From Mugil cephalus (Eukaryota; Chordata; Actinopteri; Mugiliformes; Mugilidae), in NCBI RefSeq assembly GCF_022458985.1, contig NC_061781.1:21043001-21107000 (forward strand): a DNA stretch of 64,000 nt, written 5' to 3'. The translations under genes were made by a program, and so were the position numbers. The notes under the pieces were generated by a model. That model did no database searches. It saw only the letters and a list, made by a program, of their open reading frames with translations, and had not been told where the DNA came from. Shown here in pieces: positions 13,107 to 58,400 of this stretch. How positions within the stretch are numbered: position 1 is the stretch's first letter; each line of letters begins with the position of its first letter.

Positions 13107-19626
<6,520 letters not shown>

Positions 19627-26657: not shown

Positions 26658-29600
26658 TTATGGTATTTTTTCACAAATCCATGGTAGAGATTTTGAACAT
26701 GAAATATCGTTCCAATGACTGTTCTCGACAGCTATGAGGTGTACACAGTCTTCTTCCCCCAACTCCGGAAGATTATTTCCATTGTCAGGTTGTTTTAAGT
26801 CCCAGTGGCTGGAAGGTCAGGGAACACAAGATTCATCACTATTTATCATTCAGTGGTCAAACCATAGACTTTATAATATGGATGGCATGTCCCCACTTCT
26901 TCTCACTGGCCAAACTGATACTATTTTTCCAGGGATACAGGCAGCGCTATCTTGTGACTTTGGAGCCAGAGTCTGATCAGTACAATCCAAGAGCGGAGTC
27001 ACTCAGAGCTGTGATATCAATGACCCAGCCACACTTTCTCCAAACTCACTCAAGTTTTGTTTAATTAATAGTAGGCTCTGATCTACCTCCAACAGTTACA
27101 AGGTAATGTTGGATTATACACTGTCCTTATTTTTAAAAATTGTTTTTACAATTCTAACGGAGCAGTTGGCATGGCAACTGGTGGTCACCATTATATCCTG
27201 TTTCTATAGCGTCAAATACCTAACTAAAATGAACTGATACAAAAATGACACTTGAACATGCATCAACATTATATTAACTACCTAAAATTACAAAAACTAT
27301 CCTTGAGAGAAATTTATTTGACGTGTATTTTAGTGTTTTAGTTCCAAGTCTTCACTTTTGAGGAGCAGTTCCACCTCCGTCTTTATACAATCTCTGGGTC
27401 AAACACATAAATGAAGTTCTTCTGCCTCCATGTGGCTGAAGTCCGAGTACATTTTAAAAATGTTGCTCTGCATGGTAATATTTGCCATTGAGACAAATGC
27501 ACAAATGTACATTTTGATGTCAATACTAAACTGAAATGAAGACTTACTTCAGAGTCACTGGAGTCCCATCAATCCATTTCCAGGTCCCTTCCTCTTCTTT
27601 GTCATTCAAACCAATCCAAGTATCTTTCTTGATGAAGCAAGAGACTGATGTCTGTTCAGCAGGTAGAAAAACATGTTTTAGTTTTGAATGCCATTCAAAA
27701 TAATTTTAAATTAACAACTAGAACAGTAACCTAATTGTATCATAAATATAATGTAACTCTATCCAGAGGGAACAAGTGTTTAATACTGTAAACTATCAAG
27801 AACATGTCAGACAGGCTTCTAGTTATTCAGGACCTGTTCTTCAGGGCTGTCTATCACCACCAGATCTGCTCCTCTGTTTCTACAGTCCTGTCTGCCTTCA
27901 TCCCAGGAACCAGATGCTTCAGAGAAGAAATGACAGGTATAACTGAACATTTTCCATCCTTCAGGACACGTTTTCTCTGGAAGAACCAAAAAACACAAAA
28001 CAAAACATGAAGTTGCACATTTACATTGATTTGAAACCAATGCCCACAATTTGCCCACTCAGGTGTAACATAATCAATCAAGTGATTTAGAAACCAGATA
28101 TGCCAGATGCCACTTCTTCAATTTATGAGTAAAACAGTTAGACTGATGAACAGCGCGTAAATCACAAGACATCCAAAGACTCACTCTGTTTAGGCAAATT
28201 CTGAAGTCTTTCCATCTCTTCGGTCATCTTAGTCAGGCTGATGTTCAGCAGGTCTCTCTCCTCAGTCATGGAGGACAGTTTGTCGTTGCTGGTCTGGAGT
28301 AAAGCAGTCATGTTGTCTTTGACGGCAGAGAGCTCTGCAGCTGAGTAACTGCTGTAATCTGTAATGAATAAAAATATGGATTATATATTTAGGTTTTTTT
28401 GAAAGTAATAAAATGTGTGGTCACAAACCGTGAGTTAACTGACAGTTGCAACACTATTTGATCCATGTTTCAAAACGCTTGGTTTTATGAGTCAGTGTTA
28501 ACCATTGTGAAAAAGCGGCTCATGTACTACAGCCATCAAACAAACAATGCGCAGCAGCTATCGACATCATGAGAACCACTTCAGCCTTGTCCTCCTGCAC
28601 CAGTTGCAGCCTCCACAGGTTTTTCTTGGATTATACAAACAAACCCATACCAAAACTGGCAGAAAGGGAGGGGTCATAATAGTGTTCATAAATGAAGAAA
28701 AGATTATTGTTGTGGCTCTCAAACTGACGGACTGACCATCTGAGCATCAACTAGTGACAGAGATGATCAGTGGAAAAGTATAAACTGGCAACAAATAAAC
28801 TACTATTTCATAAATAAGTAAGAATTATTGCTTGAATAATGTGACACTGACTTTTATAGTCAGGATGACCAGTGGAAAAAAACTATAACAAACAATGTGT
28901 TTATAGAAAACTATTTCAAAAAATAAATGAATAATGCAATTGTTCAAAAAATAATGCAGCTGTTGAATAGAATGTGCACCACTGATGCAGTTTTATAGCA
29001 TCACTGGACTGAACCAGTGTGCTGTTAATGGTAGAAAAACCTAATAAATCCAAACAAAGATGTGGTGTCTTTATAGAAACATTCACTTCAGTTTTTCAGA
29101 AAAAAATAAGAAAGTGAAATAATGGCACAAAAGTTTGTTAAAAAAACAAACAAAAGACAACTGAAGAAAGGACAGCATGTCAAAACATTTTCCCTTTTCA
29201 GAGCAGAGTTAGAATCCTGGAAATACCCATCCATCCACTTCTTAACTGAAAAGACTAAGAGTTTGGAAGCATTATTTGCTGCATTGTTTGTTTGTAATAT
29301 ATATACTAATTTGTACTTTTATAAATTTCCATTTTCCTATTTTTTTACTTTAAGACTTTTTAAGAATTATAGAGATAGTGTTAGAGGGTTACTTAAAAAA
29401 AGAGACTCAAGAGGACTCCAAGGATGATAGTCCAACCAAAGGAAAACACTGAACAGTCCAGAAAGATAGTAACACCTAAATATGAACTCTTCTCAGAGCT
29501 CGTTGGACCTGAACAGAGAAAACAGTGAAACCAATAACATCTACAATAGTGATAATGAAAAAGCATAATATACCTCTCAATAAATTCATCCTTACCTGTA

Positions 29601-33728: not shown

Positions 33729-35334
<1,606 letters not shown>

Positions 35335-37643: not shown

Positions 37644-40600
37644 TTATGGTATTTTTTCACACATCCACGGCAGAGATTTTGAACATGGAACATCGTTCCA
37701 AGGAGAGGAGTGTCTGTTTAAGAATTGTGCACAGTCTTCTTCCCCCCACTTTTGATCTCCATTATCAGGTTGTTTTGAAGCCCAGTATCTGGAAGGTCAG
37801 GGAACACAAGAACCATCACTATTTATCATTCAGTGGTAAAACCAGAGGCTTTTTAAGTTAGGATGGCATATCCCCAGTTCTTCTCACTGGCCACACTGAT
37901 ACTATTTTCCCAGGGATACAGGCAGCCCTATCTTGTGACTTTGGAGCCAGAGTCTGATCAGTACGATCCGAAAGTGCAGCTGAGCTGTGATATCAATGAC
38001 CCAGCAACACTTCCTTTTAAACTCACTCACGTTTTGTTTAATTAATACTAGTCTCTGATCCACCTCCACCAGTTACAAGGTAATGTTGGATTATACACTG
38101 TCCTTATTTTTAGAAATTGTTCTTACAACTCTCACGGAGCAGTTGGCATGGCCACTGTTGGTCGCCATCATGTCACATCCTGTTTCCATAGCGTCAAATA
38201 ACTAAAATGAACTGATACAAAAAAATTACACTTGAACATGCATCAACATTATATTAACTACCTAAAATTCTTTGACAGAAATTTATTATGACGTGTATTT
38301 TAGTGTTTTCAAGTCTCATCCACTAACGTGTAAGAGGTGGAGTTTCTGACCTATACTGCAGCCAGTCACCAGGGGGAGCTCTACTTGCTTTGGCTTCACT
38401 TTTGAGGAGCAGTTCAACCTCCATCTTTATAAAGACTATGGGTCAAACACAGAAATCAAGTTCTTCTGTCCCCATGTGGCTGAAGTCTGAGTACATTTTA
38501 AAAATGTTGCTCTGGCTGACTTTTTATATTTGTTCACTGATGTATACGTCCAGCAACAATATTATTTCTGCATGGCAATATTTGCCATTGAGACAAATTT
38601 TGATTTCTATATTCAACTGAAATGAAGACTTACTTCAGAGTCACTGGAGTCCCATCAATCCATTTCCAGGTCCCTTCCTCTTCTTTGTCATTCAAACCAA
38701 TCCAAGTATCTCTCTTGATGAAGTCAGCGACTGACGTCTGTTCAGCAGGTAGAAAAACATGTTTTAGTTTTTAATTCTAAATTAACAACTAGAACCGTAA
38801 CCTAATTACATCATCAATACCTGTTCTTCAGGGCTGTCTATCACCACCAGATCTGCTCCTCTGTTTCTACAGTCCTGTCTGCCTTCATCCCAGGAACCAG
38901 ATGCTTCAGAGAGGAAATGACAGGTGTAACTGAACATTTTCCACCCTTGAGGACACGTTTTCTCTGGAAGAAACAAAAACCACAAAACAAAACATGAAGT
39001 TGCACATTTACATTGATTTGAAACTAATGCCCACAAATTGGCCACTCAAGTGCAACATAATCAATCAAGTGATCAAGTGATTTAGAAACCAGACATGCCA
39101 GATGCCACTCCTCCTTCAATTCTTGAGTAAAACAGGTGGACTGATGAACAGCGCGTAAATCACAAGACATCAAAAGACTCACTCTGTTTAGACAAAATCT
39201 GAAGCCTTTCCATCTCTTTAGCCATTTTAGTTAGTTCAGCTTTCAGTAGGTCTCTCTCCTCAGTCATGGAGGAGAGTTTGTTGTTGGTGGTCTTGAGTAA
39301 CGCAGTCATGTTGTCTTTGACGGCAGAGAGCTCTGCAGCTGACTGACCATCTGTAATGGATAAAAAGATGGCTTAGATATATACAATGGTGGAAATTTTC
39401 TTTTTGGACATATTGCACAAAGCATCACTCTTAGGTCTTCAGTTGCAATTTGTTTTAGTACAGTCACCGAACAAAATACTAAACAAATCTTCCCCCCATC
39501 AAAAACTTGAAACAAATGGAACATACACCAACATAGTAAAAGTATACATATTTTAAACATAATGACAAGATTTTGAAAATCCTTTCGCCATCATTGTTAA
39601 AACTCATAATCGTTTTAGTATAAGAGGCCTTCTTTAAATTATCATAACTATGTTTAGTGTTTCATGTCCACTTTGAAGTTGAAGTGCTTTTTATTAAAAA
39701 ACTTTTTTTCTGCTGCCGTGCTTTATGTCTTTATAAAGCTAGTACATTTGAAGGTTCTTCAGAGACAAAAATGTTTAAAACGAGGAACCTAACACAGGAA
39801 ACATGTCTGAAGATGCAGATTCTCAGCCAGGAACGGCACAGCTGCTGCCAGAATGCCAGGAAGTGCAGATGCAGTCCATCAGCAGTTGGATCCACTCTGC
39901 AAAAATACAGACAAACTAACAGCTTGGAAGACAAAGGAAGATCTGGGCGTCCAAGGGTTTCTTCAGCAAAAAATTACCACATCCTGATCCACATGTACAG
40001 GGAAAACCACAGAATGACATCACAACAGCTCCAACAGCAGCGCTCAAACCAATTGGTGTCCAGTGTTCCACCTGCACTATATGTGGTCGACTTTTAGATC
40101 TGGCTTAACATCCTACAAGGCTGTCAAAAAGCCCCTGATCAATGAGGGACAGAGGTTAGCCCAGCATCGTTGGGCCCCAGCTCAGAAGAACTGGAAGAAG
40201 ATTCTTTGGTCAGATGAGTCCAGTTTCCAGCTTTATCTTCCTGCTGTCAATGTGAATTCGCAGAAGGTCAGGCCAAGCATTATCTCCAGCATGTACGGTA
40301 CCAACCATCTGTACCCAGGGGAAGCCACACCGTGCATTTATTGACTCCCCAAAATACACAAGGAGGGAGCCCCACTCAGACCCTTTGTCAGGAGTATAAG
40401 CTCAGTCATATACAACATTGCCAAGCATTTGGCATCCATCCTGTCTCCATTGGTAAGCAACACCCCACACCACATCGAAAACTCCAGGGATTTTGTGAAC
40501 AAAGTCAAGAATGTCACACCGGGCCCAGACACCTTGGCCTCAAGAACCAACTTCACCCCAGAACAAGTCTGTGTGTTACTCGACCTGTTCCTGACCACCA

Positions 40601-43550
40601 CCTATTTCCAGTTTGATGGAGGTTTCTACAGGCAAAAACACGGCTGTGCAATGGGGTCACCAGTGTCACCGATCATGGCCAATCTCTATATGGAGGAAGT
40701 AGAGGCGAGAGCCCTGGACACCTTTACAGGTTCCACCCCCAACCCACTGGTACAGGTATGTGGACGACACCTGGGTCAAAATCAGGACAGAGGAGGTGTG
40801 TCTTTCACACAACACATAAATGCAGTGGACAGCAACATCAAGTTCACTAGGGAGGACATCAGCGGGGACTATCTGGCCCTTTTTGGACTGTTCGGTGCAT
40901 GTTGACGAAGACCAAAGCCTCAACATCGGAGTATATAAAAAACCCACGCACACAGACCAGCAATTGTTATTTGATTCACATCACCCCCTGGAACACAAAC
41001 TAGGAGTCAGCAGAACCCTCCAGCACCGAGCACAGACTGTACCCACAAGACAGGATGGCAAGGACAAGGAGGGACAACACATCAAACAAACCCTCAAAAC
41101 ATGTGGATATCCCAACTGGCCCTTTGTCAAAGGCTCAAAAAGATATCCCAGGAAGGACAGGGAAGAGGAGCACAGCGGAAGGAAGAACATCGGCAATCCC
41201 CTACATAGCCGGTGTATCAGAGAATCTGAGGAGAACTTTAGGAAAAAACCACATCCCAGTTTATTTCAAATCTGGCAACACACTAATACAGAAACCAAAG
41301 ACAAAACACCCAGACAAAATCAGAGTAATGTAGTGTATGCTGTTCAGTGTAGTGAGGAATGTACAGACTTGTACATTGGGGAAACTAAATAACCCACCCA
41401 CAAATGCATGGCCCAACACAGGAGAGCCAGCTCATCAGGAAACGACTCAGCAGTCCACCTCCACCTGGACAAAGGACACTCCTTTGAAGATACCAATGCC
41501 AAAGTCCTGGCCAGAGAGAACAGATGGTTTGAGAGATGAGTAAAGGAAGCCATCTATGTCAAAGTGGAAAAACCTTCTCTAAACAGAGGAGGTGGACTGA
41601 GATTTAATTTACCGTCTATTTATAATTCAGTTTTGGCTTCAGCACAATTCAGCACCTTTCACACCTTAAGCCTCCAGGCTCCCTCTGAGCCTCGTTACAG
41701 CTCTATTCATAGGGTAAGTAGCCTACGCACACAGTTTCCCCCCATTCATGGACAGGTAAGTACCAGCTATTATGGAAATAGTGACCCCAGTCTCTGGTCA
41801 AGCAAGTTTCTGGTGGGTATACCCACAGAGTTTTCCTTTTTAAACCTCAATTTCCCACTAGCTTATCAGAATTGAAGAAGCTACTCGGATGAGTGGCGAA
41901 ACGTCTGCAAGAAATCCTACAAGTCCAGCTGACCTTATTCAACGCTTTTTAGATTACCATGACCTGGATGACTGAGAACCTTCACAGATGTACGGTACCT
42001 ACTGTCAAAAATAGTGGAGACAGTGTCATGGTTTAGGGATGCATGAGTGCTGCTGGTGTTGGTCATCTCACTGCCTGTGATGTCACACTGTCAACGTCCG
42101 AACTGGATGGTTCTACAAGACAATGCCAATGGCCACACATCTAGTGCCAGTAGAACCTGGCTGCAGGAGCATAGTATCCAGGTCTTAGAGTGGCCAAATC
42201 AATCCCCGGACATATACTCTATTGAACAACAAAATAAATATATTTTGTATTTGTTTCTATTTGTCTAATGCAGCGACACCTTTTGAAACACAAAAAAAAT
42301 GTTTCCACAAATATTTCATGATAATATTTGAGATTGTGTAAAATTCTAAGGGTGTTTTAAAACTTTTTTCCTCCACTGTATATTTAGGTTTTTATTTTCT
42401 GAAAATAATGAAACATGTTCATAAATGAACGCATGACCAGAGGACTGACCAACTGAGCGTCATCTTCAGAGTGACAAAGATGGTCAGTGGAAAAATATAA
42501 ACTGGAACTGATGTAAATGAAAATTATTTAATTTAATTTCCCTAAATTAATGGTAGCTCCTCTCGTAATTCTATATACAGTGATTTAGTAGCACTTGCAA
42601 CACTAATGCACTCCCTGAAATATCTAAACTCAAAAGCAGAAGTGTAGCTGCATTTAGTTTTATAGCGTCACAGGACTGAACTAGCGCAGCTGTTAATGGT
42701 AGATAAACATGATAAAACAAAACAATGTTGTGGAGTCTTTATAGGATGATTCTGTTTTTCAGTTAAAGTGAAATAATGGCCAGAAACCAGCATTATTTTC
42801 CTCTTGAATGTTACAAAGACTAAACTATTAGACAAAATGAAGAAGACATTTCAGACAACCGAAGAAAGTACAGCATATCAAATAAACACTTAGGTAAAAC
42901 ATTTTCCTTTTGGGAGCTAAGTTAGGATCCTGGAAAGTCTGAGAGTTTCTTGCATTGTTTGTTTGTTATATACAGCATCTTTCCTATTTTTTATATTCTC
43001 TATATTCTTTTTTTCCGTGTGATCACTGAATGTCTCCGCTGCTGTAAACAATGAAAATTTCCCCATTATGGGATGAGTAAAGGCATATCTTATCTTATCT
43101 TTTATTTGTTGAACTGGTTTTGTGAAAGTAAATGCTGCTCTTCTCTTCTGAAGAAGACACTCGGATGAGCAGCAAAACATCTTCTCAAAAAACTCTCTTC
43201 TTAAATGCCTTTTGGACCACATGACGCCTGTTTATGTCGCTATAGAAAATGATTAGAATTATTAGAGATGAGTGTTAGAGGTTTAACTGACTCACAGTGG
43301 ACATTAAGGATGATGAGTCTAACCAGCAGGAAAATACTGAGCAGCCCCAGGAAGGTAGTAACACCTAAATATGAACAGCTCGTTGGACCTGAACAGAGAA
43401 AACACCAGTGAAACCAATAACATCAACAACAGTGTTAATAAAAAAAAGCATCACATACCTCTCTATAAATCCATTCTTACCTGTGTGATTTGTTGAATGT
43501 TGTCTTTTGTAGGATATGACTTGTTCAGCACTTTCATAAATTTCCTCCAT
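37644..43550 (-). CDS. C-type lectin-like receptor E, complete, 6 exons, TM arginine
   Basis: Minus-strand exons: 43481-43550, 43296-43388, 39183-39350, 38821-38963, 38634-38737 and 37644-37788; 723 bases, 240 aa, frame kept. The tail reads [10 protein letters not shown], so the Y-x-N motif of its paralogues is lost. The TM exon is 9 bases shorter (SEK lost) and the span [16 protein letters not shown] carries an arginine. The neck has one [11 protein letters not shown] repeat. The CTLD has WIGLND, QPDN, WND and ends CEKIP; its third exon is 145 bases, as in gene A, not 151. An arginine in the span together with loss of the tail tyrosine motif resembles receptors that signal through FcR-gamma or DAP12; that is inference. 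The TM-neck intron (3.9 kb) holds a Tc1 with a nested PLE. Confidence 0.84.
39384..42378 (+). mobile_element. Tc1-like relic in gene E, same insertion as in gene C
   Basis: Starts caatggtgg at 39384 and ends ctccactg at 42378, flanked by TA. Transposase remnants: [33 protein letters not shown] (an intact GRPR box), [30 protein letters not shown], and after the [21 protein letters not shown] and SQSPD-like [10 protein letters not shown]. Frames are broken. Without the PLE and one target duplication the element is about 1.3 kb, normal for a Tc1 relic. Confidence 0.83.
40303..41987 (+). mobile_element. Penelope-like element 1, inside the gene E Tc1
   Basis: Encodes a PLE reverse transcriptase ([20 protein letters not shown], then [11 protein letters not shown], broken in the catalytic region near 40750) followed by a GIY-YIG endonuclease ([18 protein letters not shown], about 41335-41390) and the RWFER...[19 protein letters not shown]-terminal region. 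The 5' part is truncated. It ends with the tail gaaacgtctgcaag...tacaagtcc and ttcacag. A 12-bp target duplication, atgtacggtacc, flanks it (40291-40302 and 41988-41999). The undisrupted Tc1 in gene C has one copy of this site, near 15745. Confidence 0.87.
42970..43230 (+). repeat. Retroposon tail plus PLE-type tail, gene E intron
   Basis: Same composite as in genes B and C: gatcactgaatgtctc, ccattatgggatgagtaaag, a (TATCT) end, then a tail with agcaaaacatcttctc and ttttggaccacatga. It supports one insertion before duplication of B, C and E. Confidence 0.5.
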
Positions 43551-43734: not shown

Positions 43735-45228
43735 CCCTTAAACTGGACAGTTCTTCACTATTTCTTATTCCCTTAAATAGGCAAACCTTCTGTATCTTTT
43801 ATGTTACCTGGTCTGGTCTAGGTGTTTGGTACATGTCTAAGTCACATTCATCCGCCTGTCAGTGGTCGTAATGATGTGGCTGTTCTGTGTATAATAATTT
43901 CTCTCAAATCACCTCAGGATCACGATTAACACATGACATGGAGGATGGCCAAGTCTTTTCAACTCATGTTTCAAAAACACAGAAGACCTTGTTGATTTAT
44001 ATTAATTCAGTTTCTTTATTCTACTTCAAAATAAGTCAAAGACTTCCCAGTTTTACCAGAAAATAGTGAAAGACCTTCATGAATCAATCAGTTTTTCCCT
44101 GTGGCCCTCAGACAGTGGAGCTGCCACCTCAGAAGGGCATAAGCCTGATCATAATGCCTAAATAGAACCTCCTTCAATACGAACGAATACAAAACAGACT
44201 CCATAACAACACAGAGCATAACAACACCACTGACTTCACAGACAGCGTGCTCTGCAGCACAACAATCTGATACAGTGCATGCATGTCAAGTGTGAAGGTT
44301 ATTTTCTCAACCTCTGAGGATGTGATGTTTCCAAGGTGCTGAATAAAGTTTGTACAAAAATAATCCAACGCTATGTAATAGAGATGACAGAAACAGGAAC
44401 AAAGGAGTAATGACTTTAAATTCTTATCACGTCATCTTCAAACACGTCTATAAAAACTCCTCTCTGTGTGATTCAGTTCAACTCTTCTCTTCTGCTTGAG
44501 AAACATTTTATCTGTGGACATCCTTTACTGACCTGAACAACTCTCACCATCTCAGTTTTTGTGAAACAGCAAACTATTTTTAAGAGGCTATCAGAATTGA
44601 TGTATTTCTTAGCCTTATTTCTAATTGACTGTGCTGCAAAAGGGAACAAATTCCCGTAGACTCCCATGTTAAAAAGCCCAGCTTTACAACATTATTAAAC
44701 ATGTTTACAGCTTGGTTCAAACAATGGTTTTGGTCTCAGTGGTTTATTTCACTATTCATGACAACTGTACAGGGCTGATTTTTTTTTTCTAACTCATTTG
44801 TTTATTTTTTATTAAGACTTTGAGTGACAGGTGACGTATGGGCGCTGCCAGAGGCCGCTAGCTGCTAGCCTTGGTCTCTCTGCTATTCCTCACCTGAGTT
44901 AATGACAACCTCTTGCCTGAGTTTGAGGTTTTGGTCTATTTTGGATTATTTTAAATAAAAAATAATGGTTGTGTGTTTTGCTGCACCTCCTACAAGACCA
45001 TCTGGGAAGTGAATTCTGAGAATTATTTTATGGTTGATGTCAGTGTCCAACATAGCATGGCCTTAGGCTAGCCTTCCAGCGAAGCTTCGGTTTGTTAGCC
45101 AGGCTAACGGGAGGCTAACAGTCAAACCACCACTGAAGTCAGTTTAGGAAATATTAATCCACCACATAATGTCTCGTTCACGTTACTTTTTTCATATGAC
45201 CAATACTACGGTAACAAAGAAGGACTTG
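43735..45228. other. Spacer upstream of gene E, partly duplicated flank
   Basis: The part from about 43740 to 44560 is the shared upstream flank (ggtctggtctag, gtggtcgtaatgatgtggctg, ggccaagtcttttcaactcatg). From about 44650 to 45228 the sequence is different and probably an older mobile element; it resumes at 46806 after PLE 2. No gene is recognised. Confidence 0.4.
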
Positions 45229-46805
45229 TCTGTGAAGGTTCTCAGTCATCCAGGTCATGGTAATCCAAAAAAGCATTGAATAAGGTCAGCTGGACTTGTA
45301 GAATTTCTTGAAGACGTTTCGCCACTCATCCGAGTATCTTCTTCAGTTCTGATAAACTAGTGGGAAATTTGAGGTTTAAATAGGAAAAAAAACCCTGTGG
45401 GTAACACCCACCAGAACAAGTCTGTGTGTTACTCGACCTGTGCCTGACCACCACCTACTTTCAGTTCAAAGGAGGTTTCTACAGGCAAAAACACGGCTGT
45501 GCGATGGGGTCCCCAGTGTCACTGATCGTGGCCAATCTCTACATGGAGGAAGTAGAGACCAGAGCTCTGGACACCTTTGCAGGTTCCACTCCCACCCACT
45601 GGTACAGATATGTGGACGACACCTGGGTTAAAATCAAGACAAAGGAGGTGGAATCTTTCACTAAACACATCAATACAGTGGACAGCAACATCAACTTCAC
45701 CAGGGAGGACATCAGTCTGGCCTTTTTGGACTGTTTGGTGCATGTTGAAGAAGATCGAAGCCTCAACATAGAAGTATAGATCAACACCTGTTATTTGACT
45801 CACACCACCCCCTGGAGCACAAACTGGGAGTCATCAGAACCCTCCAGCACCGAGTACAGATTGTCCCCACTAGACAGGATGGCAAGGACAAGGAGGGAAC
45901 ACACATTAAACAAACCCTCAAGACATGCGGATATCCCAACTGGGCCTTTGTCAAAGGCTCAAAAAGATATCCCAGGAAGGACAGGGAAGAGGAACAAAAC
46001 AAAAGGAAGAACATCACCATCCTCTACATAGCTGGTGTATCAGAGAAACTAAGGAGAATTTTTGGTAAACAGCGCATCCCAGTTTATTTCAAACCTGGAA
46101 ACACACTAAGACAGAAACTGGTCCACCCTAAAGACAAAACACCTAGAGAGAAACAGAGCAATGTAGTGTACGCGGTTCAGTGTAGCGAGGAATGTACAGA
46201 CCTGTACATTGGGGAAACCAAACAACCCCCAAGCGCATGGTCCAACACAGGAGAGCCAGCTCATCAGGAAACGACTCAGCAGTCCACCTCCACCTGAAGG
46301 ACAAAGGACACTCCTTTGAGGATACCAACGTCAAAGTCTTGCCCAGAGAGGACAGATGGTTTGAGAGAGGAGTTAAGGAAGCCATCTATGTCAAAGTGGA
46401 GAAACCTTCTCTAAACAGAGGAGGTGGACTGAGATTTAATTTACCAACTATTTATAATTCAGTTTTGACATCTGTCCCCAAGAAGTTTCAACAACATTCA
46501 CACATTGAGCCTCCAGGTTCCCATGGACAATAGCCTCGTTAGAGCTCTATTCATAGGGTAAGTAGCCTAGGCACACAGTTCCCCCCATTCAAGGACAGGT
46601 AAGTATCAGCCATTATGGTAATTAGTGACCCCAGTTTCTGGTCAAGCAAGTTCCTGGTGGGTGTTACCCACAGGGTTTTTTTCCTATTTAAACCTCAAAT
46701 TTCCCACTAGTTTATCAGAACTGAAGAAGCTACTCGGATGAGTGGCGAAACGTCTTCAAGAAATCCTACAAGTCCAGCTGACCTTATTCAACGCTTTTTT
46801 GGATT
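45229..46805 (+). mobile_element. Penelope-like element 2 with inverted tail copy
   Basis: Flanked by a 13-bp direct repeat aaagaaggacttg (45216-45228 and 46806-46818). It begins with an inverted copy of its own 3' tail (45262-45414 against 46654-46805), then enters the RT at [20 protein letters not shown], continuing [20 protein letters not shown] and the catalytic RYVDDTW (about 45605). A GIY-YIG domain follows ([16 protein letters not shown], about 46180-46235), then the same C-terminal region as PLE 1. N-terminal RT parts are missing and frames are broken, so it is not autonomous. The inverted tail is a known feature of PLE insertion by-products. Confidence 0.87.
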
Positions 46806-46818
46806 AAAGAAGGACTTG

Positions 46819-47093
46819 GTTCAGTTTGATATACTGGTGTTGAGCTGTGCTCAGTTATATTAAAATATGAATATTACAGTATGGATCCAGACATAACTTT
46901 AGTCTAGATGTTGAAACAAGGTTATATGTTAGTAGTTGAAGGTCGAGGAACCAAAATGTGAATATTGGTAATAATATATTATAGGCAGGTTGCTTTGATT
47001 GAGGACTTTAATGGTCTACAATGAGAATTGCTCTAATTGTGTAACTTAAAAAAAATGTTAAATGTTACAATGACCAGAGGTCCCTAGATAGCG
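46819..47093. other. Continuation of the DNA interrupted by PLE 2
   Basis: AT-rich sequence with no open frame or motif I can assign. Confidence 0.3.
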
Positions 47094-47640
47094 TTACCAC
47101 CATTGACCGCACATCGCTGGTGCACCATCCGCCGTTAATCCCAGGAGTTTATTTAATGGCAGCTTCATTTCAGTTACGCATTTGTAAACCTCTTCAAAGA
47201 TTTCCCAGCCTGTGGTTGTGCTGTGTATTGATTTTAATCCCAAAAGTTCCTCCGTAACACACAGACTTGAATCCACTCCACGGATGAAGACTGACTGGGC
47301 AGTATCAGATGTGTCGCTGCTCTCATCCATTGCAAGGGAGAATGCGACGACATCTTTTCCCTTTTCCATAAGCTGGTCATATAGATTGGTGGCAAGATCA
47401 GCTACTGCGTTTCTGCTTAGGCTCACATTTAAAAATGCTTTCTTTTTCTCTGAGCACACAAGCTCACAAACTTTCATCATGCACTTTTTCACAAACTCAT
47501 TGAAGGGTTTTTGATTTTGTGATCTCTGTTGCCACAATAAGGCAGTGCAGTGCCAGTAGTACCACGAGGACACTGTGACTGCTGTTGTAGCCAATAAGTA
47601 GAGGCGGGTAAGGGTTCTGACAGCTTTAGCTATCAACTTG
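47094..47640 (-). mobile_element. hAT-like (GTF2IRD2/ZBED-type) transposase fragment
   Basis: A 180-residue minus frame includes FSLAMDESSDTSDTAQSVFI, RGVDSSLCVTEELLGLKS and KLLGLTADGAPAMCG. These are the first catalytic aspartate block (MDESSD) and the LTADGAPAM block of the hAT catalytic region as found in hAT-Charlie-type elements and the host genes derived from them. N- and C-terminal parts are absent. Sequence from about 47360 onward reappears in scrambled form at 53460-54071. Confidence 0.78.
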
Positions 47641-48111
47641 AAATATTTTATTTATTCAATTTATTCAACCGGAAGTAGCTGTTTTTTCAATCTCAATATA
47701 TCAACAATGAGAGGCACAAACAATCAACAAATGCAATCACTGTTTTAGAACACGTATATTTGTAAAATTAATAAATTAATAAAATAAAATACAATATTCT
47801 CAAAAAGAGAATAGCTGCTGGCCAGCAACCAAAAATGAAAAGGTCTCGTGAGTCTCCAGCCTGTGCGGGCCGATGGGAAAAGGATGCTGGCTGGCAGGAG
47901 GACGTCACCGCTTCCCCGGGTGGACCAGTCCCAGGTAGATGACACGTTCCGACAGCCGGAAGGAAAATGGCGGAAAAACGGTGTCGATGAAATGGCAGCT
48001 AACAGGAAAAAGTATGGCTTGAGGGCGAGGTACAGCAGTAACTACTAACAGCGTGGGCATAACAAGTTCACTGGGAGACCACAGAGCTGAACCCGCTTAT
48101 CAATAGACTAT

Positions 48112-48702
48112 TGTTATGACCCAGGGTCATTGTGTAATATTTGTTTTTGGATGTATGACTTGTCTGTGCTGTTTTTTTTTTTTTTTCCCTTTTCCATGTG
48201 CTGTTCCTCCCTGCCTGAGGGTGGTGCCACCTCTGTTGGTCTCCAGGTGCTGGCTGGCAATTGGTGAATGGGCGGGAGGAAACCCTATAAAATGGCCGTC
48301 ATTATGGAGTTCTTCCTCTCCTCTTGACCCTCCTCCCAACTGAACCAGGCATTTGTGTGTGATTTGGCAATTTGTATTTGTTAGCAGACCAGGTAGTGGT
48401 AAGGGTGAGTAGCTCTTTTTGTTGGGACCTTTTTCTCCTGTTTATTTTTATAGGGAGTCAGGTTAGAAACCTGTATTTTGATTTCCTTTATTTTTGATTA
48501 GGTAAGTCAGCTTGGGGGCACAGTGTTTTTTTGTTTGTTGTTTTGGGCCATGCTCACCCTGAAGCCTATCACTACCATTGTTGATTAAATAAATAATTAT
48601 TTGTTGGTCTGCAGCTCTGTTGTATGGTCTTCCTTGGGAGTGGGAGAGAGAGGGGGGCATCCTTTCCATGTTACATTCGGTTCCCCTAGGTCGGACGTAA
48701 CA
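48112..48702 (+). repeat. 5' LTR of the Gmr1-like element (591 bp)
   Basis: Starts tgttatgacc and ends cggacgtaaca, with the PBS 4 bases downstream. It contains ccctataaaatggcc (TATA-type) near 48285 and an aataaataa signal near 48588, consistent with U3 and R/U5. Confidence 0.78.
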
Positions 48703-48827
48703 TGAATGGGGGCTCGTCGTTCTTTCTCTGTTTCGTTGTGTAAAGTGAATTGACCTTTTCTCTCTCGTGGTCTCTGCTTGTCTGTTTGGCAGTTTTCTTT
48801 TGTGGTGGGGGCAGATGTGTAAGTGGA

Positions 48828-50330
48828 ATGGAGTTCAAATTGGAGGAGTTTGTGGCTAATCCAACCGCAGAGGTTTTAAGAAGGTGTAAAAAAGGCTGAT
48901 TTGGGCCTTATTGCCAGTTCGTTTGAGGTGCATGTGCCAACTGGTGCAAAGAAAGAGGAGATACATGATCTACTCTATGTGAAGCTGAGTGAGAGGGGAT
49001 TAATCGGCGGGCCAGCTCCCATGGTCGGAGCTGAGCCAGGTGATCTTGCAGGTGTTTCTGCCCCACTCCCAACCGCCCAGGCCCAAGCTGGCATGAATGC
49101 AGAGGAGCTGAGGCTCACCCTGCGTATAAAGGAGGTTGAGTTGAGACAGCGGGAGCTGGAGGTGGAGACTATGCACCTGAGAGTAAGGGCTCTGGAGTTA
49201 GAGCGGGGAACTGCTGTAACTGCCAGCCCTGTACCCACGCAGACAACCACGCCTAGTCCCCATGACAGCTTTGATGTGAGCAGGCACATTGCACTAGTTC
49301 CTCCATTCAGGGAATCTGAAGTCGTTTTCATATTTTAGTGCATTTGAACGCATCGCTGCTACACTACATTGGCCAAAGAGTGTGTGGCCTCTGCTACTTC
49401 AGTGTAAGCTAGTTGGGAAAGCACAGGAAGTGTGCAACTCTTTGTCTATTGAAGACAGCCTCAATTATGACTCAGTGAAAGCCACTGTCCTTAGAGCCTA
49501 TGAATTGGTACCAGAGGCATATAGACAAAAATTCAGGAACTGTGGAAAAACTGCCAACCAGACACATGTTGAGTTTGCGAGGGAGAAGAGTGCTCTGTTC
49601 GACAAGTGGTGTCAGGCCAGTAAGGTAACTACTTTTGATCATTTGAGGGAGCTCATTTTGCTGGAGGAATTTAAAAACCGGTTACCTGAGAAAATTGTCA
49701 TTTATCTGAATGAGCAAAAAGTCACCTCACTCACTGATGCTGCTGTGCTTGCTGATGAATTTTTGTTAACACACAAAAGTGTTTTTTCTCCCCCAGTGCG
49801 CCGTGAACCAGTCCCCAGTGGCCGGAGCCCTAGACCACTCAAAAACTCCCGTCGTAACTCCACTGCTGCTTCTGGTGACACTGAGAGACGAGAGTGTTTC
49901 TACTGCCATGAGCAGGGTCACCTCATTGCGGTCTGTCCCACTCTTCGAAGAAAAGACCAATCTAAGAATGTCAAATCACCATCCCCTATCAGTTTCATAC
50001 ACACCAAGCCACATCACCAGCAACAATTGGATGTAGTAGATGGAATTGATGAGGATTTCAAACCATTTGTAACTCAAGGGTCTGTTTCTCTTGAGGGAGT
50101 AGATAAACCAGTTCCTATCACTATCCTTCGGGACACCGGTGCAAAACAGTCCCTTATGTGTGAAGGCATTCTTCCCTTTTCAGCTCAGTCATACTGTGGT
50201 TCTGACATCATAGCATGGGGGGTTAAGCTAAGTGCTGTGCGGGCCCCATTGCATTTCATTCAGCTCACCTCCAAGATTGTGTCAGGCAAATTCAAAGTCG
50301 CTGTGAGACCCCAGCTGCCATAGTTGGTAT
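48828..50330 (+). CDS. gag and protease region of the Gmr1-like element, frameshifted
   Basis: Begins MEFKLEEFVANPTAEVLRRC. The frame breaks at an A6 run (about 48886) and again near 49322. It then reads through a capsid-like region (VWPLLLQCKLVGKAQEVCNS, LRAYELVPEAYRQKFRNC), a CCHC zinc knuckle (CFYCHEQGHLIAVC, 49895-49936) and an aspartic protease start (ILRDTGAKQSLM, DTG at 50132-50140). A further shift near 50322 precedes GIDLILGNDLAGGKV. Breaks are single-base, often at homopolymers, so I cannot separate true decay from sequence error. The product would package element RNA and process the polyprotein. Confidence 0.72.
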
Positions 50331-50775
50331 TGATCTGATCCTTGGCAATGATTTGGCAGGTGGTAAGGTTTTTCCATCCCCAGAGGTAACTGAAAACCCA
50401 GTAACAGATTTGTGCGTTTCCAGCTCTGCTGCACCGGTTCACCTCCTTTATTTCCTGTGTGTGCTGTAACCCGTGCTCAGGCCCGGAAACTTGGAGACTT
50501 GGTGGATCTCAGTGACTCTTTTATGTCCTCTGACCCCACAGATTCTCTCTCAGATGCTAAAGAGAATGTTGTTGTTGAGCTCCAGCCAGATGTTGAAACC
50601 TCACACTTTCAATAGACAGAGAACAACTAATCAAAGCACAGAAAACTGATCCCACTTTGTCTCCATGTTTCTCTCCTGCAACAGATCCAAAATGTGATAA
50701 GTCTGGGTCCTACCTGATAGCTGATGGAGTTCTGATGCGCCGCTGGTCCCTCATCCTGGTCCAGCATATGAGTCT

Positions 50776-51990
50776 GTGACTCAGGTTGTAGTGCCACAGC
50801 AGTTTCGTTCCCAGGTGCTAGGTTTGGCTCATGACCATAGCATGTCCGGTCATTTAGGTATCAGAAAAACCTACAACCGTATCCTCCGTTATTTCTTCTG
50901 GCCAGGGCTTAAGTCAGATGTTGCGAAGTTTTGCCGTTCATGCCACATGTCAGGTCTCAGGAAAACCCAATCAAGTAATCCCTGTAGCTCCATTAAAGCC
51001 AATCCCTATTGTTGGAGAGCCATTCGAACATGTCATCGTGGACTGCGTGGGTCCTCTGCCAAAAACAAAGTCTGGAAATCAGTACATCCTCACTGTGATG
51101 TGTGCCGCGACCCGTTACCCTGAGGGTGTCCCGTTGCGCTCCTTAAAAGCGCGCGCCATTGTAAAAGCGCTCGTCAAGTTTTTTTCCACATTCGGCCTTC
51201 CAAGGCGCATCCAAAGTGACCAGGGATCAAATTTCATGTCAAAATTTTCGCCCAGGTCATGTCAGAGCTAAACGTGAAACACCACACTTCCAGCGCCTAT
51301 CATCCTGAAAGTCAGGGTGCGTTAGAGCGTTTTCATCAAACTCTGAAAGCTATGCTCCGCAAATATTGTACCGAGAACAATCGTGAGTGGGATGAGGGAC
51401 TGCCCCTGTTGTTGTTCGCTGTGAGGGAAACGTTGCAGGAAGCGTTAGGTTTTAGCCCAGCCGATTTGGTGTTTGGCCACACCGTGCGCGGCCCTCTCCG
51501 TCTGTTGCGAGAGAAATTTCTCTCAAATAAAACTAGTTCAAGTGAAAACATCCTTGACTACGTTAGTTCCTTTAGGGAGAGATTGCATCACGCTTGTGAT
51601 TTGGCCCGTGATTCACTCTCCACTGCTCAGTCCAAAATGAAAACGCGTTTTGACCAAAAGTCTGTTGCGCGGACCTTCGCCCCTGGTGAGCGCGTACTAG
51701 TTCTCCTACCTCTTGCTGGTTCTGGTCTACAGGCAAAGTTCTGTGGTCCATATGTGGTTGACCGGAAGCTCAGCGAGACCGATTATGTAATCCACACTCC
51801 CGATCGCAGAAAGAAGACTCGCGTGTGTCACATTAACATGCTGAAGTCTTATGTTGACCGTGAGAAGAGTGTTCCACCTCCCATGGTTGCGCCTGTTGTC
51901 GCAGTGTCGGTTGCACAGCCTCCATACGATCCCTGTGATGACGGGCTGAGTGACAGACGCAGCTCCTTTGCCTGCGCGCGCCTGAGAAAC
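50776..51990 (+). CDS. Integrase region of the Gmr1-like pol
   Basis: HHCC zinc domain (AHDHSMSGHLGIRKTYNRIL and FCRSCHMS), then the catalytic core with D (HVIVDCVGPLP), D (RIQSDQGSNF) and E (ESQGALERFHQTLK), and a GPY/F-type C-terminal segment (AKFCGPYVVDRKLSETDYVI). At least two single-base shifts split the frame (about 50970 and 51240). No chromodomain is evident. It lies upstream of RT, the opposite of ordinary Ty3/gypsy. Confidence 0.78.
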
Positions 51991-52089
51991 TCCGAAATCC
52001 TGTCAAATCTAGAGACCCATTTGGCGCACCTGTCTGACTCTGCCAGATCTGATATTGGCAAACTGGTAAAAAGTTACCCAACCCTATTT

Positions 52090-53345
52090 GGCGACATCCC
52101 CACTCAAACTACGGTGTTATGTCATGATATTGATGTGGGAGATCACCCCCCGATAAAACAGCACGCCTACAGGGTGCCTCCACAAAACGTGCCATCATGC
52201 GACAAGAAGCATCATACCTTGTTGAAAATGGTTTTGCTGTGCCGAGTACTAGTCCATGGAGCTCTCCCTCGCTCCTGGTTCCTAAATCTGACCAGACTCC
52301 CCGTTTCTGTAATGATTACTGTAAGGTAAATGCCGTGACTAAACCAGACTCCTTTCCACTTCCTCGCATGGAGGACTGCGTCGATCGGGTGGGTTCAGCT
52401 AAATATGTCAGTAAGTTAGATCTTCTAAAAGGATATTGGCAGGTCCCCTGAGCCCACGCGCCTCTGAGATAAGTGCGTTTGTCACCCCCGACCATTTCTT
52501 ACAGTACACTGTTATGCCCTTTGGTCTGAGAAACGCCCCAGCCACTTTCCAGAGGCTCATGAGCACAGTTCTTTGCGGGGTGAGAAACTGTGAGGTTTAT
52601 TTGGATGACATTGTGGGCCTATTCATCCAACTGGACTGAACATGTGAAAAACCCTTTCGGAGATTTTTGAACGTTTGTGTAAAGCTTCCTTAACTCTCAA
52701 TCTGGCCAAATGTGAGTTTGGGAAGGCTGTTGTTACCTATCTAGGTAAGATAGTCGGACAAGGACGTGTCTGTCCCGTGACTGCCAAGGTGCAGGCCATC
52801 GTAGATTTTCCAGCCCCCGAACGCGCCGTGAGCTCCGGCGTTTTCTGGGTATGGCTGGATATTACCGTGGGTTTTGTAAAAACTTCTCAGATGTAGTGGC
52901 TCCACTGGACAAGTTTAGCAAGCCCCAAAGTTCCCTTCCAGTGGTCAGAGGAATGTCAGTTTTCTTTTGAGGCCGCTAAAGCTCTCCTCTGTAGTGCGCC
53001 TGTACTTGCCGCCCCAGATTTCGGGCATCCCTTTAAACTGGAGGTGGATGCCAGTGCACTTGGCGTCGGTGCAGTGCTTCTCCAGGAAGATGGGCGTGGC
53101 ATTGACCATCCCATATCCTACTTTTCCAAAAAGCTCAAAAAGCACCAACTGCACTACAGCACGATCGAAAAAGAGGCTTTAGCCTTACTGTTAGCGTTGC
53201 AACACTTTGAAGTGTACCTTGGGTCTAATGCTGAGCCAACCGTTGTTTTCTCTGACCACAATCGCTCGTGTTCCTGAATAGGATGCGAATAGCAATCAGC
53301 GCCTCATGCGCTGGTCCTTGTTGCTCCAGGACTTTAATGTAAACA
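52090..53345 (+). CDS. Reverse transcriptase and RNase H region of the Gmr1-like pol
   Basis: RT begins near HDIDVGDHPPIKQHAYRVPP (about 52123), then SYLVENGFAVPSTSPWSSPS, FCNDYCKVNAVTKPDSFPLP, the block KYVSKLDLLKGYWQVP, MPFGLRNAPATFQRLM and the catalytic YLDD. The thumb/connection has LAKCEFGKAVVTYLGKIVG. RNase H shows FKLEVDASALGVGAVLLQED and HYSTIEKEALALLLALQHFE, then LMRWSLLLQDFNV. Frameshifts occur near 52195, 52445, 52635, 52850 and 53265. As assembled it cannot give a full enzyme. Confidence 0.78.
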
Positions 53346-53459
53346 TTCGGTATTAAAAAGGGTTTTAGACAATGTGTCATGGCGATTGCTTTCCAAGAAG
53401 TTTAGTGCATCATACGATGGTCCTGTGGCAGTAGGAATGTGTTGTTTCTATAGAATGGG

Positions 53460-54071
53460 GGGTGAATGACCCTGTCACTTCTAGTGTATATTGATTTGTG
53501 GCAGATAGACTATGCGTTCTGCTTGGCTATTTTTTTTTTTTTCTGAGCACCATCCTTTCATCATGCACTTTTCACAACTGCATGAGGGTGTTGCATTGTT
53601 GTGATCTCTGGTTGCACATGGCAAGTGCAGTGCAGTAGTCCCAGGGAAACACTATGACTATGTGTCCAATATGAGAAGGTTCTTACTCTTTAGACTCCTC
53701 AACTGAAGGATATTTGTGATTTGCAATTTTAATTTATCAACCGGAAGTAAGGTGTTTTACATCTATTATCATGGGGACCATATGCATCCTGTTTTAATTT
53801 TTTAAAATAGTTTAAAAATGAATAAATATTTGAATATTCCAGCAACAAAAATGATTAAGGTGAAGTCTCAGCCTTGTGGGGCCGAGTGGAAAAGGATTGT
53901 TTGGTATGGGCCATGCTCACGCCCCTGACCTCAGTAGATGACATTGTTGATCGAAGAAAATAAAATTGTGTGAATGGCAGCTACAGAAATGTATGGCTTT
54001 GGGCGAGGTACGCAGAGATACAGCGTGGGCATTACAATGTTCATTCGGTACCCTAGGCTGACCGTTTAAAA
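53460..54071 (+). other. Chimeric consensus where the 3' LTR should be
   Basis: About 600 bases that match neither the 5' LTR nor any single other region, yet alternate short exact matches to the 5' LTR (48112-48702) and to the left flank of the element (about 47360-48111) in co-linear order. Examples: tgatttgcaatttt and gggccatgctcac from the LTR; ctatgcgttctgctt-like, caaccggaagta, and gaaatgtatggctt-like from the flank. It ends ctaggctgacc before the actat target duplication. Interpreted as an assembly artefact at a heterozygous insertion. Confidence 0.75.
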
Positions 54072-54138
54072 ACTATAAAGAAGCCAGCCTAGCTTGGCGG
54101 CTACCTAGCAACACGCTAAAACATCTTTATTATCAACA

Positions 54139-54830
54139 TTAAACTTTTCTAATGTTGTCATTAACATATAAACAATAATTACACATAACCTCCTCAGGGC
54201 AGTGATAGGTCTTTGTGGTATTATTCTCAATGTCCTCCTCATGATCAGCTAGGGAGTTGATGGGTGTCTGATTCTGTTTGTCCACTGGACCTGCATCCTC
54301 TTCCATCTCCTCCTCACCTGATTCGCTGGGGTCTGATTCCATTTCAAAGTTACTCTCTCTGTTTTGGACAGTTTAAGTGACATCTCTCATGATGTAAACA
54401 CGTTTCATTGCTTGTAGCATTCTGCAATGGAAATAATAGTGTTAGAAAATGCTTAAGTCTTAAGTCTTAAGCATGTCGTTGCAAATGAATAACAATTATG
54501 TGATACACTCAAGTGATAATCACATAATACTGTCTGGCTGGCCTAATGTACTCTCTAGTTAACATGATAAAAGGAACACACAGAACATATCACGTATTTT
54601 ACCTGTGGTTAGTAAGGTACAACTGGTATACTATGAGCAGAAAACAACACCTGGTAAACAAATAACTCAGCGATTTTTCAGGTCATGTGAAACAACATTT
54701 TTAGAGACATGCTAAAGAACTTCTTTGCTTACCTGAATGATACAGTAAAGAAGAACACGAACATCACAGTTGGGAAGCTGAGTAGCCTCTGTCCGTCTCC
54801 CCTAAACAGTTCTTTCTTGGGGTTCACCAT
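54139..54830 (-). pseudogene. Unidentified two-exon small membrane-protein-like locus downstream of F
   Basis: Minus-strand exon a (54733-54830) reads MVNPKKELFRGDGQRLLSFP then TVMFVFFFTVSF, a short basic N-terminus and a hydrophobic segment, ending at a gtaagc donor. Exon b (54139-54421) starts after a ttgcag acceptor with RMLQAMKRVYIM and frameshifts within about 50 bases; the other frame continues as an acidic tail (ESGEEEMEEDAG) and ends DNIRKV. A related exon b lies downstream of gene E. I do not recognise the family. The frameshift suggests a broken copy here; an intact parent may lie elsewhere. Confidence 0.35.
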
Positions 54831-54878
54831 CTTTGTTTCATTCATAACTACACTTCTGCTGTGAAACCTTTAAAGGTA

Positions 54879-55130
54879 TCACCTCTCAAAAGACCCACTC
54901 TGTGTGGTGTCCGTCAGCCAAAGGGATTTTGGATACAGACTATCTGCTAGCAGCAGTCCATGGTGCACCAGAGGAGGAGGGCACTTAGGGGTTTCTCTCT
55001 CTAGATAAGGTTTATTTTCAGAGCACAGTGAACATTCTCCAGCCTTTGCATGTACCTCATTACCTTTGGTCACACCTGTTAATTTGTGTCTACAACACTG
55101 GTATTCCCTCTTTTTTATGATCTTTTCCAT
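54879..55130 (-). other. Conserved small open frame downstream of gene F, function unknown
   Basis: 83 residues, counterpart of 12482-12742. Shared strings include VTKGNEVHAK, GECSLCSENKP, ETPKCPPP and TQSGSFER. It lies between the lectin 3' flank and the two-exon locus at 54139-54830, so it may be the 5' part of that gene or untranslated sequence. Confidence 0.3.
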
Positions 55131-55487
55131 GTCTGTCCAATATATTCCTTGTCAGAGACCTAGGGCTCCTTGGGTACCACTCCCAATCTAAACAATGAAA
55201 TTCCTAAATGACCCATTCCCTTGTTAAAGGACACAGTGTTTAATTTAGGTAAAGAAAAGTAATTCATTTGAGAATGGTGCATATATTTTTGTTATTTATT
55301 TTCAGAAAGCTGCAATCTCAAAAATGTGACGTTTGTCTTTTTGGGAGATGTCTTCTCAGTCATTTGTTGTGTATTTACAAAAAGTTGCATTTCGCAGTCA
55401 CACATAGCTAAATAATACTGAAGCTGAAAAGTAAAATATGAATAATTCAATAATTGAACTTGTAAAACATTTACAAATGTAACAATG

Positions 55488-58400
55488 TTACAGTATTTTT
55501 TCACATATCCATGCCAGAGATTTTGAACATGAAATATCATTCCAAGGAGAGTTGCTGCTGGTTGAGATGTGTGCACAGTCTTCTTCCCCCCACCTGCCAC
55601 TTCTACCTCCATTATCTGGTTGATTTCCGTCCCAGTAGCTGGAAGGTCAGGGAACACAAGAATCATCACTATTTATCATTCAGTGGTTAAACCATAGACT
55701 TTGTAAATAAGGATGGGATGTTCCCACTTTCTTTCATTTGACAAACTGATGCTATTTTCCCGGGGATACGGGCAGCACCATCTTGCGACTTTGGAGGGAC
55801 TCATGGAGCAGTTGGCGTGGCAACTGGTGGTCGCCATTATGTCACATCCTATTTCTATAGCGTCAAATAACTAACTAAAATGAACTGATACAAAAAATTA
55901 CACTTGAACATGCATCAACATTATATTAACTACCTAAAATTACAAAAACTGTCCTTGACAGAATTTTATTTGATGTGTTTTTTAGTGTTAAATTTCCAAG
56001 TCTCATCCACTAACATGTAGGAGGTGGAGCTTATGACCTATACTGCAGTCAGTCACCAGGAGGAGCTCTACTTGCTCCTCCTGGAGCATGGGGGGCAAGT
56101 TCTTCTGCCCCCATGTGGCTGAAGTCCAAGTACATTTTAAAAATGTTGCTCTGGTTATTTATTTATTTATTTATTTATTTTACTTGTTCACTGATATATA
56201 AGTCCAGCAACAATATTATAATATGTAGAGGGTTGAAAAATGACCTCTATTAAAAACAAACTAAATGTTGACACCCCTCTTATTTTTTTCGAGAAACTCT
56301 TAAAAAGCTACGGTATAAACAGTCTTCATTTCATTTAATTTCATTTAAATGCTATGATTTTTTGTGACACTAGGTGTTGCCATAATGTCACGTCAGAATA
56401 AAATGGCGACTGAACTGGACACATATTGACAAATTTGTCTTATTCCTCACTGCTCCACAGGTATGTGAAACGTGGTGTACATCAATTAATATTGTGTTTA
56501 CAAACTGATAAGGGGCTAATGAACCATCCAGCTGGATGTGTGTGAGAAATGAAGGGTTAATGGTTGAGTATGACGTAGTTTTGTGCCGAGTTTAACATTT
56601 TAAGCATTTTAAACACCTATTGTTAACATAGTGTAACTCGCAATGACTAAGAGGCAACAGCGTAAAGTGACTGTGTATGTTACGTTCATTTTCTTAAGAT
56701 AATAAGTACATGTCAGGGAAAATATTAGTTGTGAGTTCACAAGGCATGGATGAAATGACCGCGGAAGAGTATTAATGGCGCCGTAGTTTTGTAATGGCGG
56801 CCATCGGGTCATGTTGGTCATGTAAATAGACTGAAGTTGTTTCTAGAGAGAAGAGAAATACAGATATTATTGTTTTATTGTTAGTTTTTGTTGTGTTGTG
56901 TCAACACTTTCATACATTTCAACACTGACTTTTTGTTAAAGTGTCTCGTTAGATAGAAGTTCATTAAATATTCACATTCTGGTAATTGAAGTAACTTATG
57001 TGACAGTCAGAGGAACAGCTAACAATACTGTAAATGTGAAGTGTGCATTATTTGGCTGGAGTATAATTTTATCTTTGAGTGAGAATTGAACGCACGATAA
57101 GAAGTGATGTTAAAGGGTATATCATTTTATTTTTCTATTATTTTTGATACAGAACGTATTTGAGCAATGATTGAAATTGAATACAGTGAATTGTGGTGAA
57201 ATGTATTGTTTCATTTTACGTCAGAATGAAATGGCAACTGAGCTGGACACATACTGACAAACTTGTCTTATTCCTCACTGCTCCACAGTCATCCAGGACT
57301 GTGAAGCAAAATAGCTACTGACCCAGGTATGCCTAGCCCTGAGGCCAGTAACAAATACAATATTTGCCAGTGAGACAAATGTACATGTTGATGTCAACAC
57401 TGAACTGAAATGAAGACTTACTTCAGAGTCATTGGAGTCCCATCAATCCATTTCCAGGTCCCTTCCTTTTCTATGTCATTCAAACCAATCCAAGTATCTT
57501 TCTTGATGAAGACAGAGATTGACTTCTGCGTAGAAAAATATATTTTAGATTTGAATGTCATTCAAAATAAATTTAAATTAACAACTAGAACCATAACCTA
57601 ATTACATCATAAATATAAAGTAACTATATCCAGAGGGAACAAGTGTTTAATACTGTAAACTATTACGAGGCTTCTAGTTATTCAGGACCTGTTCTTCAGG
57701 GCTGTCGATCACCACCAGATCTGCTCCTCTGTTTTTACAGTCCTGTCTGCCTTCATACCAGGAACCAGATGCTTCAGAGAGGAAATGACAGGTACAACTG
57801 AACATTTTCCATCCTTTAGGACATGTTTTCCCTGGAAGAAACAAACACAAAATAAAAAATGAAGTTGCACATTTATATTGATTTGAAAAAAAAAAACAAA
57901 CAAAAAAAAAACGGACCACTCAAGTGTAACATAATCAATCAAGTGATCAAGTGATTTAGAAACATTTCATGCCAGATGCCACTTCTTCAATTTATGAGTA
58001 AAGCAGGTGGACTGATGAACAGCTCGTAAATCATAAGACATCCAAAGACTCACTCTGTTTGAGCAAATTCCGAAGTGTGTTCATCGTTTTAATAATTTTA
58101 GTCAGGTTGGTTTTCAGCAGGTCTCTCTCCTCAGTCATTTCAGTCAGGTTAGTGTTCAACAGGTCTCTCTCCTCAGTCACGGAGGAGAACTCTGCAGCTG
58201 AGTAGCGATCTGTAATGAATAAAAAGATGGCTTGTATATATATATATATTCAATGTACAGTGATTTAGTAGAACTTGCAACACAAATGCAGATCTTGAAA
58301 TATCTAACTTCAAAAGCAGAAGTGCAGATGTGTTTAGTTTTATAGCATCATGGACTAAAGCAGTGCAGCTGTTTACAGTAGAAAAACATACTGAATCCAA

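Follow-up and report, generated by a model that had tools for sequence, protein, structure and literature searches.

An LTR retrotransposon and its target site

The window (the whole stretch of 64,000 nucleotides of Mugil cephalus DNA analysed here) contains a retrotransposon insertion with a span of about 5.96 kb. Its 5′ LTR is intact-looking, 591 bp long (48112–48702, forward strand) and bounded by TGTTA and TAACA. The target-site duplication ACTAT, read directly from the sequence, stands immediately to the left of this LTR (48107–48111) and recurs at 54072–54076, after which the right flank begins at 54077. Compared with what is expected of an LTR pair (TG and CA termini enclosed by a target-site duplication), the 5′ LTR and the ACTAT duplication are present, and the 3′ LTR is blended with other DNA. 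The first 23 bases of the 5′ LTR have a single occurrence in the window when up to three mismatches are allowed. On the forward strand, a purine-rich tract (53452–53462), which is likely the polypurine tract, precedes the expected position of the 3′ LTR (53463–54071). Based on the alignments, controls and simulations described below, we interpret the sequence at that position (hereafter, the blend) as a consensus of the 3′ LTR and of the left flank that precedes the insertion (47340–48111).

The coding domains of the element all lie on the forward strand. A SCAN domain (PF02023; E-value = 8.7e-15) is located in the gag region at 49511–49777. It is followed by three parts of an integrase, which sit in differing open frames: the H2C2 zinc-binding domain (50791–50949; E-value = 3.6e-20), the core (51020–51244; E-value = 1.3e-9) and the p58 C-terminal domain (51745–51846; E-value = 3.1e-9). 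The start of a reverse transcriptase (PF00078) is weakly matched at 52278–52448, with 19.2 bits falling below the family cut-off of 29.6. RNase H (52942–53262; PF17919, E-value = 6.3e-33; PF17917, E-value = 2e-24) is the final coding part ahead of the 3′ end, and its open frame stops at 53277, near the left edge of the blend at about 53300.

An integrase encoded ahead of the reverse transcriptase is the defining order of Gmr1-like elements. Here, the integrase (50791–51846) precedes the sub-cut-off reverse transcriptase match, with RNase H after it, and the gag region carries the SCAN domain, which is common but not universal in the group. Judged by this domain order and by SCAN in gag, the element is a predicted Gmr1-like member of the Ty3/gypsy retrotransposons. 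It resembles other Gmr1-like elements of vertebrates in having the integrase before reverse transcriptase and RNase H, and the Gmr elements of frogs in the SCAN domain, which was described in over half of those elements and in these only (PMC4131045). Its length is near the 6.06–6.47 kb of pufferfish Gmr elements, whereas its LTR of 591 bp is outside their reported range of 337–518 bp (PMC11117352). The same source counts Gmr1 among very young invaders. A further difference is that the copy studied here has broken reading frames in the assembly: the coding region (48880–53277) is split over several frames, even though the insertion looks polymorphic. These breaks may represent either decay or further consensus errors.

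Two ordered sources at the expected 3′ LTR

The region 53000–54120 has local alignment scores of 407 to the left flank (46000–48111) and 220 to the 5′ LTR; the best of 100 shuffles reached 38 and 47, respectively. The blend itself (53463–54071) aligns from end to end with both the left flank (approximately 47340–48111) and the 5′ LTR (48112–48702). For base counts, controls and simulations, the flank was taken as 47340–48110 and the LTR as 48111–48704, that is, from one base early to two bases past its end. Among the 617 bases at 53461–54077, 386 fit both sources, 163 fit the flank only, 66 fit the LTR only and 2 fit neither. The claim of the initial annotation that the site of the 3′ LTR mixes the 5′ LTR with the left flank, both in order, is thus borne out by 615 of the 617 bases.

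Chance similarity as the cause of the blend is ruled out by the shuffles and by controls with natural sequence. When 617-bp stretches from 89 other places in the window were put in place of the blend, at least 56 bases of each were left unexplained (mean 76). Pairing the true flank with 78 other 594-bp stretches in the role of the LTR left at least 14 bases unexplained (mean 25), and pairing the true LTR with 60 other 771-bp stretches in the role of the flank left at least 34 (mean 48). Of the 68 bases without a flank match, 66 are matched by the LTR; shuffled LTRs matched a mean of 36 per cent and a maximum of 72 per cent of these bases (100 shuffles).

Both sources are incompletely retained. 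The blend keeps 549 of 771 flank bases and 452 of 594 LTR bases, so that about 29 per cent and 24 per cent, respectively, are missing. The flank gives more to the blend than the LTR does, with flank-only bases outnumbering LTR-only bases in five of six bins; the exceptional bin (53667–53769) has 16 flank-only and 17 LTR-only bases. The longest unbroken run of blend bases is 70 for the flank and 19 for the LTR. The blend is not a product of clean switching between segments, and the two sources interleave every few bases. This corrects the earlier list of stretches that each follow one source.

The same annotation had described the two sources as unrelated, and our comparisons agree. Three 200-bp pieces of the LTR scored 33, 27 and 33 against the flank at 44000–48111, with maxima of 41, 34 and 38 over 30 shuffles, so that no homology between LTR and flank above the level of shuffles was found for these pieces and this range. 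A global alignment of flank and LTR scored 21 (shuffle mean, 10), and one 24-base pair (47355–47378 and 48183–48206) is 88 per cent alike.

Extent of the blend

The LTR part of the blend begins at about 53463, directly after the purine-rich tract, and the right end of the blend coincides with the ACTAT duplication at 54072–54076. To the left, a weak tail with traces of flank 47108–47344 extends into the end of the element (53300–53462). The flank signal was 70.5 vs. 47.7 (standard deviation 5.3) at 53380–53464 and 127.5 vs. 96.4 (standard deviation 6.8) at 53300–53464, and in both cases none of 300 shuffles was as high. The signal was marginal at 53250–53420 (reached by 16 of 300 shuffles), and no flank signal was found at 53100–53300 (189 of 300 shuffles). 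In an anchored test with 100 shuffles, cumulative z remained at 3.1 to 4.1 down to 53185 and then dropped. Individual 40-base steps of this test were noisy, with z-values of 3.1, 1.4, 0.3 and 2.2 down to 53305, and of 0.3, −0.3, 1.9 and −2.3 beyond it. We place the left edge of the blend at about 53300, with an uncertainty of some 100 bases. The left bound drawn initially, at the start of the LTR, was thus too sharp.

A mirror effect, in which the right flank would be overlaid on the 5′ LTR, was also considered and rejected: the 5′ LTR holds no trace of the right flank (z from −0.5 to −2.1), and the 5′ junction is clean. This asymmetry could reflect extension in one direction, or clipping of reads at one end, by consensus tools.

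Predictions of a consensus vote

An alignment of flank and LTR made independently of the blend predicts which bases the blend retains. Where a flank base is paired with an identical base of the LTR, it was kept at a frequency of 0.779, compared to 0.636 for other flank bases; LTR bases were kept at 0.808 when so paired and at 0.656 otherwise. In neither test did any of 300 shuffled partners yield a difference as large.

We also simulated pile-ups of noisy reads under assumed error rates, in which the flank served as the backbone and supplied 5, 6 or 7 of the 20 reads (8 runs each). With the real LTR, the choice of kept flank bases in the simulated consensus agreed with that in the blend, with a mean phi of 0.24, 0.25 and 0.23 for 5, 6 and 7 flank reads. 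With a shuffled LTR under the same settings, mean phi was 0.09, 0.09 and 0.08, and the ranges do not overlap with those of the real LTR (at 5 or 6 flank reads, 0.21–0.33 for the real LTR and 0.02–0.12 for the shuffled LTR). At 5 and 6 flank reads, the simulated sequences were 600 and 619 bases long, with flank-only shares of 0.22 and 0.28 and LTR-only shares of 0.11 and 0.07; the blend has 617 bases and shares of 0.26 and 0.11. Shuffled-LTR pile-ups reached similar values (614 and 621 bases; flank-only, 0.25 and 0.27; LTR-only, 0.09 and 0.07). Length and shares therefore carry no evidence for the LTR and show only that a vote can generate such sequences; in the simulation, the choice of kept bases alone is specific to the real LTR.

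An equal-share vote (10 to 10 reads) gave a near-pure flank or a pure LTR, depending on the backbone, and did not reproduce the blend. When aligned to the blend, the simulated consensus sequences scored 361, 393 and 453, and the plain flank scored higher (511). Given the failure of equal shares and these low scores, the exact consensus step behind the artefact stays generic.

Origin of the blend and alternative explanations

Since no biological mechanism known to us would switch back and forth between two unrelated sequences at intervals of a few bases, we read the blend as a consensus artefact. The 386 bases that fit both sources at once are expected of gapped alignment followed by a vote that keeps shared bases, and would not be expected of recombination. 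The presence of ACTAT on both sides, the termination of the blend at this duplication and the mere 2 bases that fit neither source indicate that the second source is the same locus without the insertion. There are few visible differences between the flank part of the blend and the local flank (2 bases without a source, compared with 163 specific to the flank), although differences that coincide with LTR bases would be hidden. With a probability of about 0.88, we propose that reads of the locus with and without the insertion were mis-stacked, and that the empty site is the other allele. An origin of the artefact in reads of an insertion-free version had been suggested at the outset, and the prediction of kept bases, the phi values of pile-ups with the real LTR and the ACTAT on both sides all speak for it. 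Points against it are the missing mirror effect at the 5′ junction, the failure of the equal-share vote, the low scores of the simulated consensus and the multi-frame coding region, which would not be required of a young polymorphic copy.

The artefact could have arisen as follows. The sequenced DNA would have contained two versions of the locus, one consisting of the left flank, 5′ LTR, interior, 3′ LTR and right flank, and the other empty, with one ACTAT. Because the right flank is common to both kinds of reads, an assembler or polisher would stack them there. To the left of the junction, the 3′ LTR of one kind would face the left flank of the other, and gapped alignment would force an overlay. 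A base-by-base vote would then produce an intermediate sequence that is present in neither version. Further leftward, the insertion-free reads would end or be clipped, and the blend would fade within the last part of the element. The noisy long reads, the vote and the clipping are presumed steps of this scenario.

The insertion-free reads might have come not from the other allele but from a recent duplicate or homeologous locus, or from pooled animals. At the level of sequence, an allele and a near-identical second locus look the same, and the flank may itself be mobile DNA, as the open frame at 47094–47651 matches DUF4371 at 24.9 bits, short of the cut-off of 32.1, and this domain accompanies hAT transposons. 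With 2 bases fitting neither source and a shared right flank, such a duplicate would have to be both long and recent. We regard this variant as unlikely; the simplest source of the empty version would be the second allele carried by the animal that was sequenced, and a duplicate or pooled animals would be a less simple one.

Much more improbable is a real 3′ LTR that has degenerated or has recombined with the flank by gene conversion or template switching. Stretches of tens of bases that track one source, such as the longest runs noted above, are compatible with it. Such an LTR would nevertheless require that, along 600 bp, the sequence changes source in register at intervals of a few bases, even though the two sources show no detectable relation; bases that fit both sources at once, as 386 of 617 do, are not a product of recombination, and neither process accounts for the prediction of kept bases from the flank–LTR alignment. 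The least credible explanation is that a duplicated and since diverged left flank lies to the right of the element, with a chance resemblance to the LTR. It draws on the stronger match to the flank (407 vs. 220) and is already refuted by the match to the LTR, in which the score of 220 far exceeds the shuffle maximum of 47 and almost all non-flank bases (66 of 68) are matched, at a level above every shuffled LTR.

Relation to known assembly errors

Haplotype switches at the breakpoints of heterozygous structural variants are a described assembly error (Inspector; PMC8590762), and heterozygosity between haplotypes has been named a major cause of assembly errors in vertebrates (PMC8081667). The blend is like the haplotype-switch error in being a sequence between haplotypes, found in neither of them, at an insertion breakpoint: it is intermediate between its two sources in nearly all of its bases and in order, and it ends at ACTAT. 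That its two sources are two haplotypes is our inference. It differs from that error in that it was deduced here from the assembled sequence alone, and in that a blended LTR is absent from the available part of the published description (PMC8590762). In limited literature listings, no title or beginning of an abstract proposed that a blended LTR could reveal a segregating insertion without recourse to reads, a scope too narrow for a claim of novelty.

The retrotransposon is probably inserted on only one of the two chromosomes, and the insertion is thus probably recent. The blended 600 bp is not itself a real genomic feature and is unfit for dating by LTR divergence, for repeat libraries and for calls of regulatory sequence. 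We offer as a tentative idea, which may well prove wrong, that heterozygous insertions systematically leave blended LTRs behind in collapsed long-read assemblies, as a scar that can be recognized without reads. Were this true, scanning genomes for LTRs that mix the partner LTR with the adjacent flank would list segregating insertions and still-jumping families in single animals.

Other features of the window

A scan for other blends, in which 200-bp pieces were compared to 9 kb on each side, returned 152 matches with scores of at least 85, and the 45 richest in gaps were viewed. Five aligned pairs outside the locus resemble diverged or simple repeats in which well-matched islands occur. Two adjoining A+T-rich stretches (28797–28899 and 28907–29064) have an identity of 1.00 over 100 bases with 25 gaps, 23 of them one-sided; their likeness is probably due to low complexity. 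A search for the empty-site junction in viral contigs gave no matches, as expected for such a collection, and no RNA families were found at 46000–57000.

The window also carries other repeats. An uninterrupted frame of 357 codons at 34045–35118 encodes Tc1/mariner transposase domains (Sleeping-Beauty-type HTH, Tc3-type HTH and DDE) and is possibly an intact DNA transposon. Direct repeat copies at 40554–41996 and 45405–46838, approximately 4.85 kb apart, have an identity of 0.89–0.95 in aligned bases (200-bp pieces), and the open frame 40345–40905, located at the first of them, has a weak, below-cut-off match to reverse transcriptase. At 9328–9414, 14563–14652 and 58095–58179, a similar 42-bp unit is repeated in tandem as a pair, with 89–95 per cent matches within arrays; at a guess, these might be repeats in the coding sequence of a gene family.
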